DNA of 64,000 nt, from positions 1 to 64,000 of the forward strand of contig NZ_AUGP01000017.1 in the NCBI RefSeq assembly GCF_000422725.1, read 5' to 3'. Both the position numbers and the translations under genes were made by a program. Positions 4,141-60,776 of this stretch are shown in pieces. Positions within the stretch are counted from its first letter, which is position 1; each line of letters opens with the position of its first letter. Source of the DNA: Flavobacterium subsaxonicum WB 4.1-42 = DSM 21790. GTDB lineage: Bacteria > Bacteroidota > Bacteroidia > Flavobacteriales > Flavobacteriaceae. A model generated the notes under the pieces. That model was not told the origin of the DNA and searched no databases. It saw only the letters and a program-made list of their open reading frames with translations.

Positions 4141-4370
4141 AAATGTAAAAGTACAAAAGAAGGAGCAAGTCTGAAAGTCGAAAGTCATAAAGTCATAAGG
4201 TCGTAAAGTCTAAAGTCAGAAGGTCGAAAGTTATAAAGTCGAAAGTCCGTGGTTGGGAAGTCTGATAGAAAAAAGTTAAGGGTCGAAAGCGAGCACCTGA
4301 CTTGATGACCTGATAACTTTCGACTTTACACCTCTATGACTTTAACACTAAAAATCATAAACCTTCGTTA
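4141..4370. repeat. Degenerate AAAGTC array with inverted partner
   Basis: The gap of about 310 bases between menI and the next gene holds about ten variants of a 6-9 base word (AAAGTC, GAAAGTC, ATAAAGTC). A 12-base perfect inverted match, GTCGAAAGTTAT (4223-4234) against ATAACTTTCGAC (4313-4324), lets the region fold back. I see no gene or clear promoter inside it. Confidence 0.55.
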
Positions 4371-19600: not shown

Positions 19601-21991
19601 ATGAAACGCACTATTAAAAAGGCAGCCGTTGTAGGCTCCGGCATCATGGGGTCTGCCATTGCTATCCATTTTGCCAATATAGGTGTAGAAGTGCTCCTGC
19701 TGGACATCCCGCCAAGGGAACTTAACGAAGCTGAGCAAAAAAAAGGCCTTAGTTTAACCGATAAGGCTGTGAGGAACAGGATAGTGAACGACCATTTGGC
19801 CAACTCGCTAAAAAGTAAGCCCTCTCCCATTTACCACCAAAAATTTGCCGAGCGAATTTCTACCGGTAATACCGAAGACGACATGCATAAGATAGCCGAA
19901 GCCGATTGGGTTATTGAAGTTGTTGTAGAACGCCTTGATATTAAACAGAAAGTTTTCGAGAACATCGAAAAATACCGCAAGCCGGGCACACTTATTACCT
20001 CGAATACATCGGGTATTCCTATAAAATTTATGAGCGAAGGCCGCAGCGAAGACTTCCAGAAGTATTTTTGCGGTACTCACTTTTTTAACCCTCCGCGTTA
20101 CCTTAAACTTTTCGAAATCATACCGGGTCCGCAAACCTCAACAGAGGTACTGGATTTCCTGAATAATTATGGCGAGAAGTTTCTTGGCAAAACATCGGTA
20201 GTAGCTAAAGATACCCCTGCCTTTATTGGTAACCGTATTGGTATTTTTGGTATTATGAGCTTGTTTAAACAGGCTAAAGATATGGGCTTAACCATAGAGG
20301 AAGTTGATAAACTTACCGGCCCCGTTATTGGGCGCCCTAAGAGTGCTACCTTCCGTACGGTAGATGTAGTGGGCCTTGATACCCTGGTACACGTTGCCGA
20401 AGGTATTTATGAAAACTGCCCTGATGATGAAGTGCACGACCTGTTTAAGGTGCCCGATTTTATAAATACCATGATAACCAACAAATGGCTGGGCAGCAAA
20501 ACCGGCCAGGGCTTTTATAAAAAAGTAGATAAAGATATCCTGTCGCTCGATCTGGACACGCTGGAGTACCGTGCAGCCAAAAAAGCATCGTTTGCTACAT
20601 TAGAGCTTACCAAAACTATAGATAAGCCTATAAACCGCTTTAAAGTGCTTGTTAAGGGCACTGATAAAGCCGGCGAATTTTACCGCAAGAATTTTACCGG
20701 CATGTTTGCCTATGTGGCTAACCGCGTACCTGAAATTACCGACGACCTTTATAAAATAGACGACGCCATGAAAGCCGGCTTTGGCTGGGAAAACGGTCCG
20801 TTCGAAATTTGGGATGCCGTGGGTGTAGAAAAAGGCATCGAGTTTATGAAAGCCGAAGGCCTTGAGCCTGCCGCCTGGGTTACCGATATGTTAGCATCGG
20901 GCAACAAAAGCTTCTACACTATTAAAGAAGGCGCTACGTATTACTACGACCTGGCCTCTAAATCTCAAAAGAAAATTCCGGGTCAGGATGCGTTTATTAT
21001 ACTAAACAACATTCGCGAAAGCAAAAAAATATGGAGCAACAGCGATGCCATTATCCAGGACCTGGGCGATGGTATTATAAACCTTGAGTTCCAGTCTAAA
21101 ATGAATACCATTGGCGGCGGTGTGCTTCAGGGCATTAACAAAGCCATCGACCTTGCCGAAAAAGAATACGACGGGCTTGTAATTGGCAACCAGGCGGCAA
21201 ACTTTTCGGTTGGCGCTAACTTAGGCATGATCTTTATGATGGCTGTTGAGCAGGAATATGATGAGCTTAATATGGCTATTAAAATGTTCCAGGATACGAT
21301 GATGAGGGTTCGTTATTCGTCGATACCCGTAGTGGTTGCGCCGCATGGCATGACACTGGGTGGCGGTTGCGAAATGAGCATGCACGCCGATAAGGTTGTG
21401 GCCGCTGCCGAAACCTATATTGGCCTTGTGGAGTTTGGCGTTGGGGTTATTCCCGGCGGTGGCGGTAGCAAGGAAATGGCGTTAAGGGCATCGGACACTT
21501 TTAAGAAAAACGATGTGGAACTTAATGTGTTGCAGGAGTATTTCTTAACCGTGGCTATGGCTAAGGTATCTACTTCGGCATACGAGGCATTTGATACCGG
21601 CATACTTCAAAAAGGCAAAGATGTTATTGTAGTAAACAAAGACAGGCAACTTGCCGAAGCTAAAAAGCATGCCAAACTGCTTGCCGATGCGGGCTACACC
21701 CAACCGGTAAAACGTAAAGATGTAAAAGTACTGGGCAAACAGGCACTGGGTATGTTTATGGTGGGCACCGATAGTATGGAAGCAGGGCATTACATATCTG
21801 AACATGATAAAAAAATTGCCAACAAACTGGCCTACGTTATGGCCGGCGGCGATTTATCTGAAGCTACTTTGGTAACAGAGCAGTACTTACTGGATTTAGA
21901 GAGGGAAGCATTCCTTTCTTTAACCGGAGAGCGTAAAACATTAGAGCGTATTCAATTCATGCTAACTAAAGGGAAACCGCTTCGTAACTAA
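19601..21991 (+). CDS. fadN: 3-hydroxyacyl-CoA dehydrogenase / enoyl-CoA hydratase (FadN type)
   Basis: This bifunctional beta-oxidation enzyme has 796 residues. The N-terminal NAD-binding 3-hydroxyacyl-CoA dehydrogenase domain has the GSGIMGSAIAIHFAN dinucleotide motif at residues 13-27, and TSNTSG and GTHFFNPP motifs near 130-165. The C-terminal enoyl-CoA hydratase/crotonase domain has MTLGGGCEMSMHAD near 585 and VEFGVGVIPGGGG near 612. This domain order and length fit B. subtilis FadN rather than E. coli FadB. It is the first gene of a fadN-fadA-fadE order also known from Bacillus. Confidence 0.93.
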   Translation: MKRTIKKAAVVGSGIMGSAIAIHFANIGVEVLLLDIPPRELNEAEQKKGLSLTDKAVRNRIVNDHLANSLKSKPSPIYHQKFAERISTGNTEDDMHKIAEADWVIEVVVERLDIKQKVFENIEKYRKPGTLITSNTSGIPIKFMSEGRSEDFQKYFCGTHFFNPPRYLKLFEIIPGPQTSTEVLDFLNNYGEKFLGKTSVVAKDTPAFIGNRIGIFGIMSLFKQAKDMGLTIEEVDKLTGPVIGRPKSATFRTVDVVGLDTLVHVAEGIYENCPDDEVHDLFKVPDFINTMITNKWLGSKTGQGFYKKVDKDILSLDLDTLEYRAAKKASFATLELTKTIDKPINRFKVLVKGTDKAGEFYRKNFTGMFAYVANRVPEITDDLYKIDDAMKAGFGWENGPFEIWDAVGVEKGIEFMKAEGLEPAAWVTDMLASGNKSFYTIKEGATYYYDLASKSQKKIPGQDAFIILNNIRESKKIWSNSDAIIQDLGDGIINLEFQSKMNTIGGGVLQGINKAIDLAEKEYDGLVIGNQAANFSVGANLGMIFMMAVEQEYDELNMAIKMFQDTMMRVRYSSIPVVVAPHGMTLGGGCEMSMHADKVVAAAETYIGLVEFGVGVIPGGGGSKEMALRASDTFKKNDVELNVLQEYFLTVAMAKVSTSAYEAFDTGILQKGKDVIVVNKDRQLAEAKKHAKLLADAGYTQPVKRKDVKVLGKQALGMFMVGTDSMEAGHYISEHDKKIANKLAYVMAGGDLSEATLVTEQYLLDLEREAFLSLTGERKTLERIQFMLTKGKPLRN

Positions 21992-22004: not shown

Positions 22005-22415
22005 AGATATTAGCATTGAGAATTGAGACTGTATGCATAAAGTAGAAGATTTAAAGGTTTGGCAAAAGTCGATTGTATTAGCTAAACAAGTTTACAAAAT
22101 AGTTGCAGACTTGCCTTCTGATGAAAAATATAGCCTATCATCTCAAATTAAGAGATGCGCAGTTTCTGTTGCATCAAATATTGCAGAAGGAGCTGGAAGA
22201 AATATTAATAAAGAGTTTAAACATTTTCTAAGTATCGCAAATGGTTCTTGCTATGAGCTTCAAACTCAATTAATACTAACCTATGAACTTAATCTTATTG
22301 AAAAATATAAAATTGATGAATTATTGCCACTGATAACTGAAATCCAAAAAATGAATTATTCATTCCAAAAGAGTCTTCAGGACGTCTCAATTCTCAATAC
22401 TAAAATCTAATATCT
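22005..22415 (+). mobile_element. Inverted-repeat-enclosed element 1 carrying an S23/four-helix-bundle gene
   Basis: ATTGAGAATTGAGAC (22015-22029) and GTCTCAATTCTCAAT (22384-22398) are a perfect 15-base inverted repeat. A further 9-base pair, AGATATTAG (22005-22013) and CTAATATCT (22407-22415), extends the stem to 24 paired bases. The four-helix-bundle gene fills the loop and its stop codon lies in the right arm. The arrangement equals that of 23S rRNA intervening sequences, where an S23 gene sits in the loop of a stem that RNase III excises. Here it lies between fadN and fadA. Whether it is mobile or excised is inference. Confidence 0.6.
22033..22410 (+). CDS. Four-helix-bundle protein (S23/IVP family), copy 1
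   Basis: This 125-residue all-helical protein opens with the family hallmark DLKVWQKSIVLAKQVYKI. RCAVSVASNIAEGAGR and a conserved HFLSIANGSCYELQTQL segment follow. The family was first seen as ORFs within 23S rRNA intervening sequences and is related to Avd of diversity-generating retroelements; it binds nucleic acid. Codon use is AT-rich, unlike the fad genes on both sides. It starts 41 bases after fadN and ends 10 bases before fadA. It has no expected place in beta-oxidation, so it is best read as an inserted element. Confidence 0.92.
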   Translation: MHKVEDLKVWQKSIVLAKQVYKIVADLPSDEKYSLSSQIKRCAVSVASNIAEGAGRNINKEFKHFLSIANGSCYELQTQLILTYELNLIEKYKIDELLPLITEIQKMNYSFQKSLQDVSILNTKI

Positions 22416-22420
22416 ATAAA

Positions 22421-23602
22421 ATGAAAACAGCATATATAGTTAAGGCTTATCGCACAGCGGTAGGTAAAGCACCTAAGGGAGTCTTTAGGTTCAAGCGTCC
22501 GGATGAGTTAGCAGCAGAAGTAATTCAGTTTATGATGAACGAGCTGCCGGAATTCGACAAAACAAGAATTGATGATGTACTGGTGGGTAACGCCATGCCC
22601 GAGGCTGAGCAGGGGTTAAACTTTGCGCGCCTTATATCGCTTATGGGGTTAAAGGTAGACGATGTTCCGGGTGTTACGGTAAACCGCTATTGCGCATCAG
22701 GATTAGAAACCATCGCTATGGCTACGGCCAAAATACAAAGTGGTATGGCTCATTGCGTGATAGCAGGGGGTGCTGAAAGCATGAGCTATATCCCGATGGG
22801 TGGCTACAAGCCGGTACCTGATTACCAGGCGGCTAAAAACGGTCACGAAGATTATTACTGGGGCATGGGCCTTACGGCAGAGGCTGTTGCAAAACAGTTT
22901 AAAGTAAGCCGCGAAGATCAGGACGAATTTGCCTACCATTCGCACCAAAAGGCACTTAAAGCTCAGGCCGAGGGTAAATTCGATAAACAGATAGTTCCTA
23001 TTACTGTAGAACAGGTATATGTAGATGCTAACGGCAAAAAAGCCACTAAAAGCTATACGGTTACTAAGGATGAAGGTCCGCGTGCCGATACATCGTTAGA
23101 GGCATTAGCCAAACTAAAACCGGTTTTTGCTGCCGATGGTAGCGTAACCGCAGGTACATCGTCTCAAATGAGCGATGGTGCTGCGTTTGTCTTGGTAATG
23201 AGCGAAGAGCTGGTTAAAGAACTTAAACTGGAGCCTATTGCCCGCCTGGTTAGCTATGCCGCAGCCGGTGTAGAGCCAAGAATTATGGGTATCGGTCCCG
23301 TTAAAGCCATACCAAAAGCACTTAAGCTTGCCGGTTTAGAACTGGAAGATATTCAGCTTATAGAACTTAACGAGGCCTTTGCATCGCAATCGCTTGCCGT
23401 GGTTCGCGAGTTGGGCATCAACAAAGATATTGTAAACGTAAACGGCGGTGCTATTGCTATGGGCCACCCACTGGGTTGTACCGGTGCTAAATTATCGGTT
23501 CAACTTTTTGACGAAGCCAAACGCCGTGGCAGTAAATACGGTATGGTAACCATGTGCGTAGGTACAGGCCAGGGCGCAGCGGGGATTTATGAGCTTTTGT
23601 AA
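22421..23602 (+). CDS. fadA: Acetyl-CoA C-acyltransferase (thiolase)
   Basis: It catalyses the final thiolytic step of beta-oxidation. The 393 residues are the usual thiolase length. The acylated cysteine lies in [10 protein letters not shown] near residue 91. The C-terminal active-site motifs are [19 protein letters not shown], with the His near 350, and [12 protein letters not shown], with the Cys near 380. It is the second enzyme gene of the fadNAE operon, separated from fadN and fadE by S23-type elements on each side. Confidence 0.95.
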
Positions 23603-23604
23603 TT

Positions 23605-24023
23605 TATTTTAAATGATGAATTTTAAATTTTAAATGACGTGAAGGATAATATTATAGCTGTTAAAACTTTCGATTTCTCGTTAAGTATTATCAGCCTTTA
23701 CATCAGCCTGAAAAGGGAGAATGAATTCATCATTTCAAAACAATTAATGAGATCGGGTACCAGTATTGGCGCCAATGTAGAAGAAGCAATAGCCGCCCAA
23801 TCTAAAAAAGATTTTATACACAAAATGGCTATTGCATCTAAAGAAGCAAGAGAAACTAAGTATTGGTTACGACTTTTAAGCAAATCAGCACTTACGCAAA
23901 CTCCTGTAGATAGTTACCTGATTGAGGTTGAACATATAATAAATATAATAACAAAAATAATTAAGACATCGCAGGAAGGTATCGCGAAGCCCATTTAAAA
24001 TTTATAATTCAAAATTTAAAATA
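23605..24023 (+). mobile_element. Inverted-repeat-enclosed element 2 carrying an S23/four-helix-bundle gene
   Basis: The left arm 23605-23636 and the right arm 23992-24023 pair at 29 of 32 positions. The inner 20 bases, TGAATTTTAAATTTTAAATG against CATTTAAAATTTATAATTCA, differ at one position. The enclosed gene starts 3 bases after the left arm and its stop lies within the right arm. The arm sequence is unrelated to that of element 1, yet the architecture is the same. It lies between fadA and fadE. AT-richness makes chance pairing easier here, but the length and position argue against chance. Confidence 0.55.
23639..23998 (+). CDS. Four-helix-bundle protein (S23/IVP family), copy 2
   Basis: This 119-residue protein is of a different subgroup from copy 1. 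The motifs are KTFDFSLSIISLYISLK at the start, then SKQLMRSGTSIGANVEEA and FIHKMAIASKEARETKYWLR. It starts with GTG. It lies between fadA and fadE inside an inverted repeat. The low similarity to copy 1 and the different flanking arms show two independent insertions in one operon rather than a tandem duplication. The likely activity is nucleic-acid binding. Confidence 0.9.
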   Translation: MKDNIIAVKTFDFSLSIISLYISLKRENEFIISKQLMRSGTSIGANVEEAIAAQSKKDFIHKMAIASKEARETKYWLRLLSKSALTQTPVDSYLIEVEHIINIITKIIKTSQEGIAKPI

Positions 24024-24031
24024 TCATAGTC

Positions 24032-25837
24032 ATGTCAGACACATTAGAAAAACAATTAGCACGAGGAGGTCAATTCCTTGTAAAGGAAACACAAAGTGAG
24101 GACGTGTTTACTCCGGAAGATTTTTCGGAAGAGCAGCAAATGATGCGCGACTCGGTTAAAGAGTTTATCGACCGTGAGATCTGGCCGAACAAAGACCGTT
24201 TTGAAAAGAAAGATTATGCCCTTACTGAAGAGAGCATGCGTAAAGCCGGAGAGCTTGGCTTTCTGGGTGTAGCCGTGCCCGAAGAGTATGGCGGACTTGG
24301 TATGGGCTTTGTAAGCACCATGCTGGTTTGCGATTACATTAGTGGTGCAACGGGTTCGTTCTCTACCGCTTTTGGCGCACACACCGGTATTGGCACTATG
24401 CCAATTACCCTTTATGGTACCGAGGAGCAAAAACACAAATACGTTCCTAAACTTGCCAGTGGCGAATGGTTTGGCGCGTATTGCCTTACTGAGCCGGGCG
24501 CAGGATCTGATGCTAACTCGGGCAAAACCAAAGCGGTTTTAAGCGAAGACGGTACGCATTACAAAATTACCGGCCAGAAAATGTGGATATCTAACGCCGG
24601 CTTCTGCAGTGTATTTATAGTATTTGCACGTATTGGCGACGATAAAAATATTACCGGCTTTATAGTAGATAACGATCCGTCTAACGGAATTTCTCTTGGC
24701 GAGGAAGAACATAAGCTGGGCATACGTGCCTCGTCTACCCGCCAGGTATTTTTTAACGATACCAAAGTACCGGTAGAGAATATGCTGAGCGAGCGTGGCA
24801 ACGGCTTTAAAATAGCCATGAATGCCCTTAACGTAGGCCGTATTAAGCTGGCTGCCGCCTGCCTTGATGCGCAGCGCAGAACAATAAGCAACTCGGTTAA
24901 ATATGCTAACGAGAGGGTTCAGTTCAATACACCTATTGCTAATTTTGGTGCTATTCGCGCTAAGCTGGCCGAAATGGCTGCTAACTGCTACGCCGGCGAA
25001 AGTGCTGCCTACCGTGCTGCTAAAAATATAGAAGACCGTATTAATGCCCGCGTTGCTAATGGCGAAAGCCATCAGGATGCCGAACTTAAAGGTGTTGAAG
25101 AATTTGCTATAGAATGCTCTATACTTAAGGTGGCAGTATCTGAAGATATTCAGAATTGTGCCGACGAAGGTATCCAGATATTTGGTGGTATGGGCTTTAG
25201 CGAAGATACCCCAATGGAAAGCGCCTGGCGCGATGCCCGTATTGCCCGTATTTACGAGGGTACTAACGAGATTAACCGTATGCTTAGCGTTGGTATGCTG
25301 GTTAAAAAAGCTATGAAAGGGCATGTGGACCTGCTTGGCCCTGCCATGAAGGTTGCCGAAGAATTAATGGGCATCCCTTCTTTTGATACACCTGATTATT
25401 CTGAGCTTTTTGCTGAGGAGAAAGAAATTGTAGGCAAGCTTAAAAAAGCTTTCTTAATGGTTGCCGGTAGTGCGGTTCAAAAATATGGCCCGGCGTTAGA
25501 CGAGCACCAGCAATTGCTAATGGCTGCCTCTGATATACTTATAGAAATTTATATGGCAGAATCGGTTATATTAAGAACTGAGAAGCTTGCCAAAAGTAAA
25601 GGTGCCGATGCTGTTAAAGAGCAAATTGCCATGGCGCAATTGTACTTATACCACGCGGTAGACCTGGTTAATACTAAAGGTAAAGAAGGTATAGCATCGT
25701 TTTCTGAAGGCGACGAGCAACGCATGATGCTTATGGGTTTAAGGCGTTTTACCAAATACAACAATATGCCTAACGTAGTAGCCTTAAGGGAAACTATTGC
25801 GGCCAAGATTGTTGCCGAAAACAACTACCCGTTTTAA
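24032..25837 (+). CDS. fadE: Acyl-CoA dehydrogenase
   Basis: This FAD-dependent enzyme catalyses the first step of beta-oxidation. The 601 residues match the long bacterial FadE type with an extra C-terminal domain (B. subtilis FadE is of similar length), not the 380-residue short form. Motifs are YCLTEPGAGSDA near residue 150, KMWISNAG near 187, RIYEGTNEINR near 410 and the GGMGF segment near 388. It is the third enzyme gene of the fad operon, followed by a strong terminator. Confidence 0.95.
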   Translation: MSDTLEKQLARGGQFLVKETQSEDVFTPEDFSEEQQMMRDSVKEFIDREIWPNKDRFEKKDYALTEESMRKAGELGFLGVAVPEEYGGLGMGFVSTMLVCDYISGATGSFSTAFGAHTGIGTMPITLYGTEEQKHKYVPKLASGEWFGAYCLTEPGAGSDANSGKTKAVLSEDGTHYKITGQKMWISNAGFCSVFIVFARIGDDKNITGFIVDNDPSNGISLGEEEHKLGIRASSTRQVFFNDTKVPVENMLSERGNGFKIAMNALNVGRIKLAAACLDAQRRTISNSVKYANERVQFNTPIANFGAIRAKLAEMAANCYAGESAAYRAAKNIEDRINARVANGESHQDAELKGVEEFAIECSILKVAVSEDIQNCADEGIQIFGGMGFSEDTPMESAWRDARIARIYEGTNEINRMLSVGMLVKKAMKGHVDLLGPAMKVAEELMGIPSFDTPDYSELFAEEKEIVGKLKKAFLMVAGSAVQKYGPALDEHQQLLMAASDILIEIYMAESVILRTEKLAKSKGADAVKEQIAMAQLYLYHAVDLVNTKGKEGIASFSEGDEQRMMLMGLRRFTKYNNMPNVVALRETIAAKIVAENNYPF

Positions 25838-28670: not shown

Positions 28671-28732
28671 TTAATGGGGTTTTGGGAAGATAAAATTACG
28701 AATTTTAAATTATGAATTTGGAAGGAGGCTTT

Positions 28733-42068: not shown

Positions 42069-42110
42069 TTTCTTCCTGTATTTAATTTATTCTTACTTAC
42101 TATTTTGATG

Positions 42111-42187
42111 GCCGTAAAGTCGAATGTTTAAAAGTCATAAAGTGCAGTTACAGCGACTTTTTGCTTTAAGACATTCGACCTTGCGGC
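42111..42187 (-). promoter_or_regulatory. Long hairpin in the infC-rpmI spacer
   Basis: The arms 42111-42134 and 42164-42187 pair at 20 of 24 positions (core GTCGAATGT/ACATTCGAC). Two of the mismatches would be G-U pairs in the mRNA. The position is that of the L20 translational operator in E. coli, but the words AAAGTC and CATAAAG also link it to the intergenic array at 4141-4370. Control element or repeat insertion are both possible. Confidence 0.5.
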
Positions 42188-42194
42188 TATTGTT

Positions 42195-45043: not shown

Positions 45044-45214
45044 CACCTAAAAAGCTGTTGTAATTTTGCAGCAGGGAAAATGGTTGTTGGTTGTTGGGAA
45101 AAAAGTTTCAGGTTTCAGGTTTAAAGTTTCTGGTTGGGTGCCGATAAGTATTCGAAACAACGGGTTGCAGGTCTTTGACATCGTGGTGAGTTTTGCCGGA
45201 GCGGGTGCCCCCAC

Positions 45215-45583
45215 CTACTCCGAAACTTTTTTGTATTCCAGGGTACCCAGGGTGGCGTAGGTAATAATGCGTTTTTGGGCATCAAAATAGTCAATGGTAA
45301 AATCGGCCACCACAATGCCCGATGTTATGGTAAGCACCGTGTTGTCTTTATTAAGTTTCCAGGTACCCTTATGGGTTTTATCGCCCACAATACTTTCAAA
45401 TTTATTGCCCTCTTTAAAAACCTGAAACACCTGGTCGGTTTTGTAATAATCGGCAATGTCTTTGTCTTTGCCTTTTTTGGTCCATTTAACCAATTGCCAC
45501 TTGCCCAGCAGCTGCTCCTGGGTTTGCGCACTAACCGTAACTGCCATAAAAAACACTACGGCAACAAAAAATAAATTCTTCAT
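45215..45583 (-). CDS. Secreted lipocalin-like protein
   Basis: This 122-residue protein has a signal peptide (residues 1-19, ending TVSAQ). The mature part has the lipocalin-like pattern of Bacteroidota: LLGKWQLVKWTKKG near 25-38, FEGN-type FKEGNKFES, and THKGTWKLNKDNTVLTIT near 70-87. The barrel may bind a small hydrophobic ligand or simply be structural. It is monocistronic, and probably periplasmic. Confidence 0.85.
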   Translation of the reverse strand: MKNLFFVAVVFFMAVTVSAQTQEQLLGKWQLVKWTKKGKDKDIADYYKTDQVFQVFKEGNKFESIVGDKTHKGTWKLNKDNTVLTITSGIVVADFTIDYFDAQKRIITYATLGTLEYKKVSE

Positions 45584-45599
45584 AAGTTTTAGTATTTAG

Positions 45600-45772
45600 T
45601 TGAACAGCATAAAGTTAATGAATTTTTATTTCGGTTGACAGCTGTTAGTTGTTGGATTTTGAGTTGCGGGTTTTGGGTTGGGAGTTTTGGGTTTTGAGTT
45701 CCTGGTTGATGGTTGGTGGTTGTCGGCACGCCCTGTCATCCTGAGCACAGCGCAGCGGAGTCGAAGGATCTC
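45600..45772. repeat. G/T-rich word array plus GTCATCCTGAGC repeat
   Basis: The 380-base gap 45584-45963 carries iterated GGTTTTGGGTT and GGTTGTTGG words (about 45640-45725). It also holds a GTCATCCTGAGC...GGAGTCGAAGGATC repeat (45736-45772) related to 31034-31072. No gene is visible. Confidence 0.5.
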
Positions 45773-45873
45773 CGTTCGGCGTTGAGCGTTTTGAGTGTTG
45801 CGGGTTGTGAGTCGTTGCGAGGGAGGCACAACCACGGCAATCTAATTCTCTTTTATAAAATATTTAAAAATAA

Positions 45874-56784: not shown

Positions 56785-56942
56785 GGTTCTCTTTTACAGC
56801 GTGCAAAGATACTATTTCAGATTTTAGATTTCAGATTTTAGATTAAGAAAAGAGAAGAGGGGATGATGGATGGGAGATAACGGATGAAAGACATAATGAT
56901 AAAGGCCAAAAAATGTATATTTGATACACCAGCTTTAACCTT

Positions 56943-60676: not shown

Positions 60677-60776
60677 TTTTTAGATGATAGATATTAGATA
60701 ATAGATGTTAGACAGCTTCGGGCCACTTTAACGCTTCTTTCTCAATACTCAAGTCTGACTACTCAATTCTAAACAA

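Follow-up and report, generated by a model that had tools for sequence, protein, structure and literature searches.

Described Systems and the Locus Studied

The S23 or IVP protein family has for thirty years been known mainly from intervening sequences (IVSs) of ribosomal RNA (rRNA). The present analysis concerns an S23 element in the fad operon of Flavobacterium subsaxonicum WB 4.1-42 = DSM 21790, one of eight such units in its genome, each about 400 nt long and promoterless-looking. The stretch of DNA analysed, referred to here as the window, comprises 64,000 nt (contig NZ_AUGP01000017.1, positions 1 to 64,000).

In Coxiella, the 23S rRNA IVS was described as a 428-nt insertion with a 28-bp stem and an S23 open reading frame (ORF) in its loop, subject to cleavage by RNase III (PMC4990558). 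The elements studied here share with the 23S rRNA IVSs of Leptospira and Coxiella the protein family, the size of about 400–430 nt and terminal inverted repeats of about 25–28 nt (PMC4990558). The likeness to these IVSs drawn by the initial annotation was borne out, as S23 ORFs of about 360–380 nt lie within 25–30-nt terminal inverted repeats, as reported for Coxiella (PMC4990558). Unlike the IVSs, the present elements sit in an mRNA operon instead of rRNA (element 1 being placed between fadN and fadA), gene-less forms abound, and the arms consist of heptads or octads with no sign of RNA-pair selection, periodicity having been examined in the elements here only.

REPINs and their RAYT genes offer a second comparison, being short intergenic inverted-repeat units whose gene-less copies share sequence with the gene-bearing copy and whose presence depends on one gene family (PMC3116915). 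The gene here is nevertheless S23 and not a Y1 (HUH) tyrosine transposase, and the repeats are heptads rather than REP palindromes. Intergenic arrays of 7-nt units were also reported from Xanthomonas and Nostoc/Calothrix, the GGGAATC repeats of Xanthomonas occurring as inverted pairs (70 and 75 cases), although the main text of that report contains neither "S23" nor "four helix" (PMC4692102). According to the same source, heptameric repeats are over-represented in many bacterial genomes, polymerase slippage is their proposed cause and detailed literature on them is lacking (PMC4692102). The BrickBuilt miniature inverted-repeat transposable element of Porphyromonas gingivalis is likewise a Bacteroidota element of intergenic position that combines tandem repeats with inverted ends, but it has 23-nt units and IS5-type ends, with no S23 gene mentioned in the portion of the text searched (PMC4596501). 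Avd of the diversity-generating retroelements is a four-helix-bundle relative (bAvd, 3.3e-5; NCBIfam Avd, 1.1e-6); both matches fall under the curated cut-offs (28.9 bits against 80 for NCBIfam Avd), and the sole RVT_1 match of the genome lies on a different contig, C1. Searches of open-licence papers turned up no account of S23 genes with heptad arms.

The findings are interpreted here, with moderate confidence, as a REPIN-like gene-repeat system, in which an S23 gene with mirror arrays of AG-bearing heptads is accompanied by gene-less derivatives on which S23 would act in trans.

Mirror Heptad Arrays Flank S23 Genes

As a general rule, S23/IVP genes (PF05635, TIGR02436) were flanked by mirror arrays of 7–8-nt units, usually with one AG each. 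The congener set held 128 unique S23 loci, of which four with short flanks were excluded and 124 scored; it favours high-scoring matches, being made up of listed loci, 60 hand-picked from a longer list and the fad-region loci. Within this set, the median score between the upstream and downstream arms of one element was 17.0, against 8.5 for mismatched non-syntenic arms. Scores of at least 13 were reached by 97 of the 124 loci (2.8% of non-syntenic mismatched pairings) and scores of at least 15 by 89 (0.9%), while a single one of 148 other small genes from the sampled stretches scored at least 13. The periodicity of 190 arms peaked at 7 (z 30.1), 14 (z 21.6) and 8 (z 13.7), and in 106 of 155 arms AG recurred three times or more with a spacing of 7/8, compared with a mean of 6.6 and a maximum of 12 in 50 shuffles. 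The order of the units was mirrored, with an identity of 0.86 in register and 0.62 one unit off; a reading in which the arrays serve only as binding sites, with no mirrored order, was rejected on this ground.

The words vary between copies, yet the two arms of one element were shown to change jointly. Among 361 same-site orthologue pairs, an element's own arms beat swapped ones in 303, tied in 11 and lost in 47. The covariance of the arms, proposed as a check alongside the initial annotation, emerged most clearly at 50–70% protein identity, where own arms won in 161 of 162 same-site pairs.

The architecture extends beyond Flavobacterium. PF05635 was present in 60 of 61 congeners and 116 of 148 Bacteroidota genomes, and arms scoring at least 13 were found at 16 of 31 phylum-wide loci (1.8% of cross-pairings) and in 56 of 80 GTDB-wide rows (4.8%). 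The GTDB set was the best 80 of a longer list, its 80 rows representing 79 loci (L262 appears twice; L258 was excluded for a short flank), and included metagenome-assembled genomes labelled Clostridia, Ruminococcus, Desulfosarcina, Acidobacteriaceae, Betaproteobacteria, Ignavibacteriae, Peregrinibacteria and Opitutae. Among plasmid records, 22 matched the window protein and 40 a Nostoc query. Seventeen cyanobacterial plasmid loci were scored (14 when three syntenic pairs are counted once; L383 is not among them), in all of which both arms had a best period of 7 or 8, as against 24 of 340 shuffles. Fifteen of the 17 mirrored at a score of at least 13, and so did 36 of 272 cross-pairings, because some words are common to several copies; L375 and L376 carried arrays without a mirror. 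Rfam gave no rRNA match at 15 S23 loci that came from other phyla or near them, and a tblastn search for phage carriage matched none of 50,697 phage records.

Two side observations were made at these loci. A long head-to-tail TTAGTGA array adjoins the S23 gene of L162, and its word is a rotation of the Helicobacter heptamer GTGATTA (van Belkum, as cited in PMC4692102). On cyanobacterial plasmids, S23 lies between cas genes at L372, L376 and L387 (cas6-S23-cas4 twice and cas10-S23-cmr3). Such copies may explain why the 23S rRNA IVP appears in CRISPR-association screens (PMC10910872).

Occupied and Empty Sites at the fad Junctions

The fadN–fadA gap (J1) was measured in 58 genomes, the present one included, and the fadA–fadE gap (J2) in 56. 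J1 comprised nine S23-size gaps, every one with an S23 gene, 26 gene-less hairpins, two long gaps, nine mid-size gaps below the hairpin threshold, 11 tight gaps and one fused frame (L078). The idea of an inserted unit with empty sites in relatives is upheld by the tight class, in which seven of the 58 junctions measure 3–5 nt and four more 22–29 nt; in the close relative G033, whose fadN is 91% identical, J1 is 5 nt. Nor is the gene a constant occupant of this site, which holds S23 in nine of 58 genomes, its own included. J2 comprised 26 S23-size gaps, 12 hairpins, seven mid-size and 11 tight gaps. The label "non-autonomous" does not suit element 1, which carries a gene; it is the gene-less hairpins that look dependent. 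Other families, GC-rich or unrelated, account for several of the junction hairpins (e.g., L069, L077, L085, L094 and L112). One GC-rich gene-less family, CCCCCTAACCCCCAAAGGGGG, was noted in J2 of L069 and L105 and in J1 of L094, and a second, unrelated one, TTTGTCATTTCGACGAAGGAGAAATC, in J2 of L077, L079, L082 and L093.

The S23 proteins formed two clades at J1 (minimum identity 0.40) and two at J2 (0.12), so that the same gaps were apparently entered more than once. At non-syntenic sites, proteins at least 70% identical shared their arms (27 pairs) and others did not, with 0 of 500 Mantel permutations for each of three arm measures at non-syntenic congener sites. Examples of shared arms are L004/L147, L162 against the nadD-side group, and L111/L012, which flank fadN in one genome. 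Gene and arms were thus shown to occur jointly at new sites, i.e., as one unit. By eye, no clear target-site duplication was seen in examples, the ends blurring into repeats; no formal test was applied.

Gene-Less Arrays Track the Presence of S23

Arrays of period 7/8 were chosen as the genome measure because counts of AG runs alone were too sparse. In the sampled intergenic gaps, S23-plus genomes held 62 such arrays in 61.4 kb (shuffle 10.6) and S23-minus genomes 11 in 65.7 kb (shuffle 8.4), a contrast with a p value of 7.8e-11 overall and 5e-4 per genome. It persisted on removal of the richest S23-plus genome (41 arrays in 57.1 kb, p 1.8e-6) and within the family (27 arrays in S23-plus against three in S23-minus genomes), and other repeat periods in the sampled stretches gave no comparable difference. 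G067 (three stretches missing), G181 (contigs of 213–216 nt) and G170 (no usable gap) were excluded from this test, and G195 contributed 45 nt. Nine of 13 S23-plus genomes and none of 16 S23-minus genomes exceeded twice the shuffle, a dependence on one gene family that is shared with REPINs (PMC3116915). Gene-less arrays were found in gaps of all orientations, including those between divergent and convergent neighbours.

The arrays also resemble the S23 arms of their own genome. Gene-less J1 hairpins resembled own-genome J2 S23 arms with a score of 15.2 against 11.9 (5/5000 permutations, 16 genomes), and for 14 gene-less arrays of the window, the S23 arms present in the same genome gave a better match than random sets of eight (39/5000), about five of the 14 matches being strong.

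It has to be weighed whether such arrays arise by slippage, with S23 only homing into ready-made hairpin loops in the manner of IVSs in 23S helix loops. The gene-less hairpins at the same fad junctions in other species and the mirrorless arrays of L375 and L376 would fit this account, but it is very improbable given that the sampled S23-minus genomes show no array excess and that the arms accompany the gene at non-syntenic sites. It would also be conceivable, though distinctly improbable, that S23 rings bind AG-heptads in mRNA and tune operon expression, the arrays being their binding sites; TRAP, for instance, binds UAG/GAG repeats. An AG core at fixed 7/8 spacing, the tracking of S23 by the arrays, the operon seating, the purifying selection described below and the five-chain crystal entries are all consistent with such a regulator. 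A binding site, however, has no need of a mirrored copy with kept unit order; moreover, the words drift freely except for AG, and the gene-less arrays lie in gaps of every orientation.

RNA Stem or DNA-Level Mirror

Another explanation places the function in the mRNA: the arms would pair in the polycistronic transcript and RNase III would free the S23 loop, leaving the insertion harmless to the operon. The layout matches that of the Coxiella IVS, which is cleaved by RNase III (PMC4990558), the arms covary, and folding of the complete sense RNA is stronger than that of dinucleotide shuffles (z -2.86). Seating within operons is also strict, S23 being co-directional with both neighbours at 120 of 124 congener loci and in 28 of 31 site groups, compared with 73 of 148 control genes; the corresponding figures were 69 of 80 GTDB rows, 22 of 31 phylum rows and, from annotation tables, 12 of 17 cyanobacterial loci.

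The mismatches between the arms nevertheless render this account rather unlikely. Read on the sense strand, 169 elements contained 184 G.U-type and 239 A.C-type mismatches, and 29 gene-less hairpins contained 15 and 37, respectively. With no G.U excess in either S23 elements or gene-less hairpins, selection for an mRNA stem was rejected, and the stem conceived in the initial annotation as a conserved feature of the mRNA is not supported. At arm mismatches the sense strand showed a bias towards A (A/T 251 against T/A 150; C/T 102 against T/C 51). The A.C excess is probably this bias, which shifts the comparison slightly the other way; since it contributes to the difference, the result is read as an absence of RNA-pair selection rather than as support for the other strand. 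Furthermore, a stem requires neither mirror nor period-7 structure, gene-less arrays occur in divergent and convergent gaps as well, and three cyanobacterial copies (L371, L373 and L377) are opposite to both neighbours, L375 and L388 having one opposed neighbour each. The co-directional seating probably reflects a need for expression from the host operon. The missing G.U signature points to upkeep of the mirror at the DNA level, which might proceed through a single-stranded DNA hairpin or templated copying, rather than at the mRNA level.

The S23 Protein and Its Proposed Role

The ratio of nonsynonymous to synonymous substitutions (dN/dS) had a median of 0.077 and a maximum of 0.188 (99 usable of 118 pairs), so that S23 is under purifying selection and the protein itself matters. 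Its relatives by sequence in the PDB are 2gsc (7.6e-17), the Xanthomonas campestris S23 protein XCC0516, and 2rld (0.012), with five chains each; from these entries and work on Avd, S23 is probably a pentamer. Neither window gene had a PADLOC match to anti-phage defence at E <= 0.001 or a recombinase domain in Pfam or NCBIfam.

Of 148 Bacteroidota genomes, 59 had an RVT_1 match and 106 a Y1_Tnp match. Either enzyme as an obligate partner was rejected on account of G088, which has nine S23 genes and neither enzyme; neither is therefore required for the presence of the element, and the lack of a Y1_Tnp match in so S23-rich a genome is a further difference from the REPIN/RAYT system. A partner enzyme could nevertheless have served old, immobile copies in the past. 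One genome of the phylum sample, G162, combined 19 RVT_1 matches with 13 S23 genes.

Under the REPIN-like reading, a pentameric S23 ring would bind AG-heptads, one unit per subunit, and would in trans allow hairpins to be copied, spread or retained, a role that RAYTs play for REPINs. Several observations weigh against it. Catalysis, binding and movement by S23 were not observed, and its action on the arrays is something that we infer; no recognised nuclease or transposase domain was found in the protein with Pfam or NCBIfam. No arms scoring at least 13 were present at 27 of the 124 congener loci, in 24 of the 80 GTDB rows or in 15 of the 31 phylum-wide rows. For 42 of the 169 elements, local scores placed an arm closer to its own shifted copy than to its mirror. 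Above 70% protein identity, own arms beat swapped ones less often (142 of 199 same-site pairs). The contrast between S23-plus and S23-minus genomes was drawn from sampled stretches, and arrays are missing from some of the S23-plus genomes, such as G158 with ten copies and no array in 2.6 kb. Relatedness, which was not removed from the J1/J2 test, partly confounds the sharing of words within genomes. Lastly, most same-site copies look long vertically inherited, so that moves would be rare.

More broadly, and only tentatively, S23/IVP may be what makes or maintains bacterial heptanucleotide repeats, its pentamer recognising AG-heptads and copying or spreading mirror arrays across Bacteroidota, Cyanobacteriota and other phyla. 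Were this true, the S23 system would count among its local forms the 23S rRNA IVSs, the GGGAATC repeats of Xanthomonas and the Nostoc/Calothrix STRR repeats, and S23 copies between cas genes (three plasmid loci), suf genes or the halves of metH would be passengers and not parts of those systems; an S23 that truly makes arrays would represent a categorically new system. As heptad arrays track one gene family, their cause becomes testable; S23, a protein of no known function, gains a candidate substrate, and the 23S rRNA IVSs are placed in a wider family.

Elements and Arrays in the Window

The coordinates are collected in Table 1. The inverted repeat first seen at element 1 is genuine and longer than its perfect 15-mer (22015–22029 and 22384–22398), which forms part of 25-nt arms with 92% complementarity (22005–22029 and 22384–22408); the outer 9-mer AGATATTAG (22005–22013) pairs with 22407–22415. 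The enclosed gene does belong to the S23 family, scoring 135.7 bits with PF05635 and 127.2 with TIGR02436 (curated cut-offs 33.8 and 24), but it is not wholly enclosed: its stop codon is 22408–22410, so that the right arm lies inside the ORF and encodes the C-terminus. The AT-rich codon usage ascribed to it was confirmed, with a GC content of 0.299 and 0.216 at third positions (GC3), against 0.45–0.48 and 0.43–0.48 in fadN, fadA and fadE. Rfam gave no family at the locus, its single match being at chance level (E 0.63).

A second S23 element with TTTTAAA-type arms, missed by the initial annotation, occupies the fadA–fadE gap of the same operon. Its gene scored 80.3 bits with PF05635 and 97.9 with TIGR02436, both above the curated cut-offs, and both window genes are AT-rich relative to the operon. 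The arm scores of the two were 20.0 and 24.5. A profile search found eight PF05635 genes in this genome, and the flanking words differ per copy (e.g., ATTGAGA, GGTTGTT, TTAGATTG, AATTACG and TTTTAAA). Known seats include those between the halves of methionine synthase (metH), in the sufC/sufD gap and between panB and a pseudouridine synthase gene.

Table 1. Positions of the fad operon genes, S23 elements and gene-less arrays in the window.
Feature	Position	Strand	Remarks
fadN-type 3-hydroxyacyl-CoA dehydrogenase/enoyl-CoA hydratase	19601..21991	+	host operon
Element 1, 5' arm (ATTGAGA heptads within AGATATTAGCATTGAGAATTGAGAC)	22005..22029	+	
S23/IVP four-helix-bundle gene 1, 125 aa	22033..22410	+	PF05635 8.4e-40, TIGR02436 2.9e-37
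Element 1, 3' arm	22384..22408	-	overlaps S23 ORF end
9-nt outer partner of 22005-22013	22407..22415	-	
fadA-type thiolase	22421..23602	+	host operon
Element 2, 5' arm, period-7 ATTTTAA array	23606..23635	+	
Second S23/IVP gene, GTG start, 119 aa	23639..23998	+	divergent subfamily; PF05635 1.4e-22, TIGR02436 3.7e-28
Element 2, 3' arm, period-7 ATTTAAA array	23993..24022	-	
Acyl-CoA dehydrogenase (fadE)	24032..25837	+	host operon
Gene-less AAAGTC-word array	4178..4228	.	matches own S23 copy L003, score 19.0; inverted partner in same gap
Gene-less AATTACG-word array	28694..28718	.	matches own S23 copy L007, score 20.0
Gene-less hairpin, AAGTC/AAAGTC words	42108..42190	-	arms 42108-42143 and 42156-42190
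Gene-less GGTTGTT-word array	45073..45096	.	matches own S23 copy L002, score 16.0
Gene-less GGTTGNT-word array	45696..45728	.	matches own S23 copy L002, score 15.5
Gene-less period-7 array ATTTCAGATTTTAG	56810..56849	.	best own match L001, score 17.0
Gene-less period-7 array TTAGATAATAGATA	60677..60714	+	between two + genes

Dense gene-less GGTTG/GGGTT heptad arrays were also noted throughout 45073–45815, around a small minus-strand ORF at 45215–45583.
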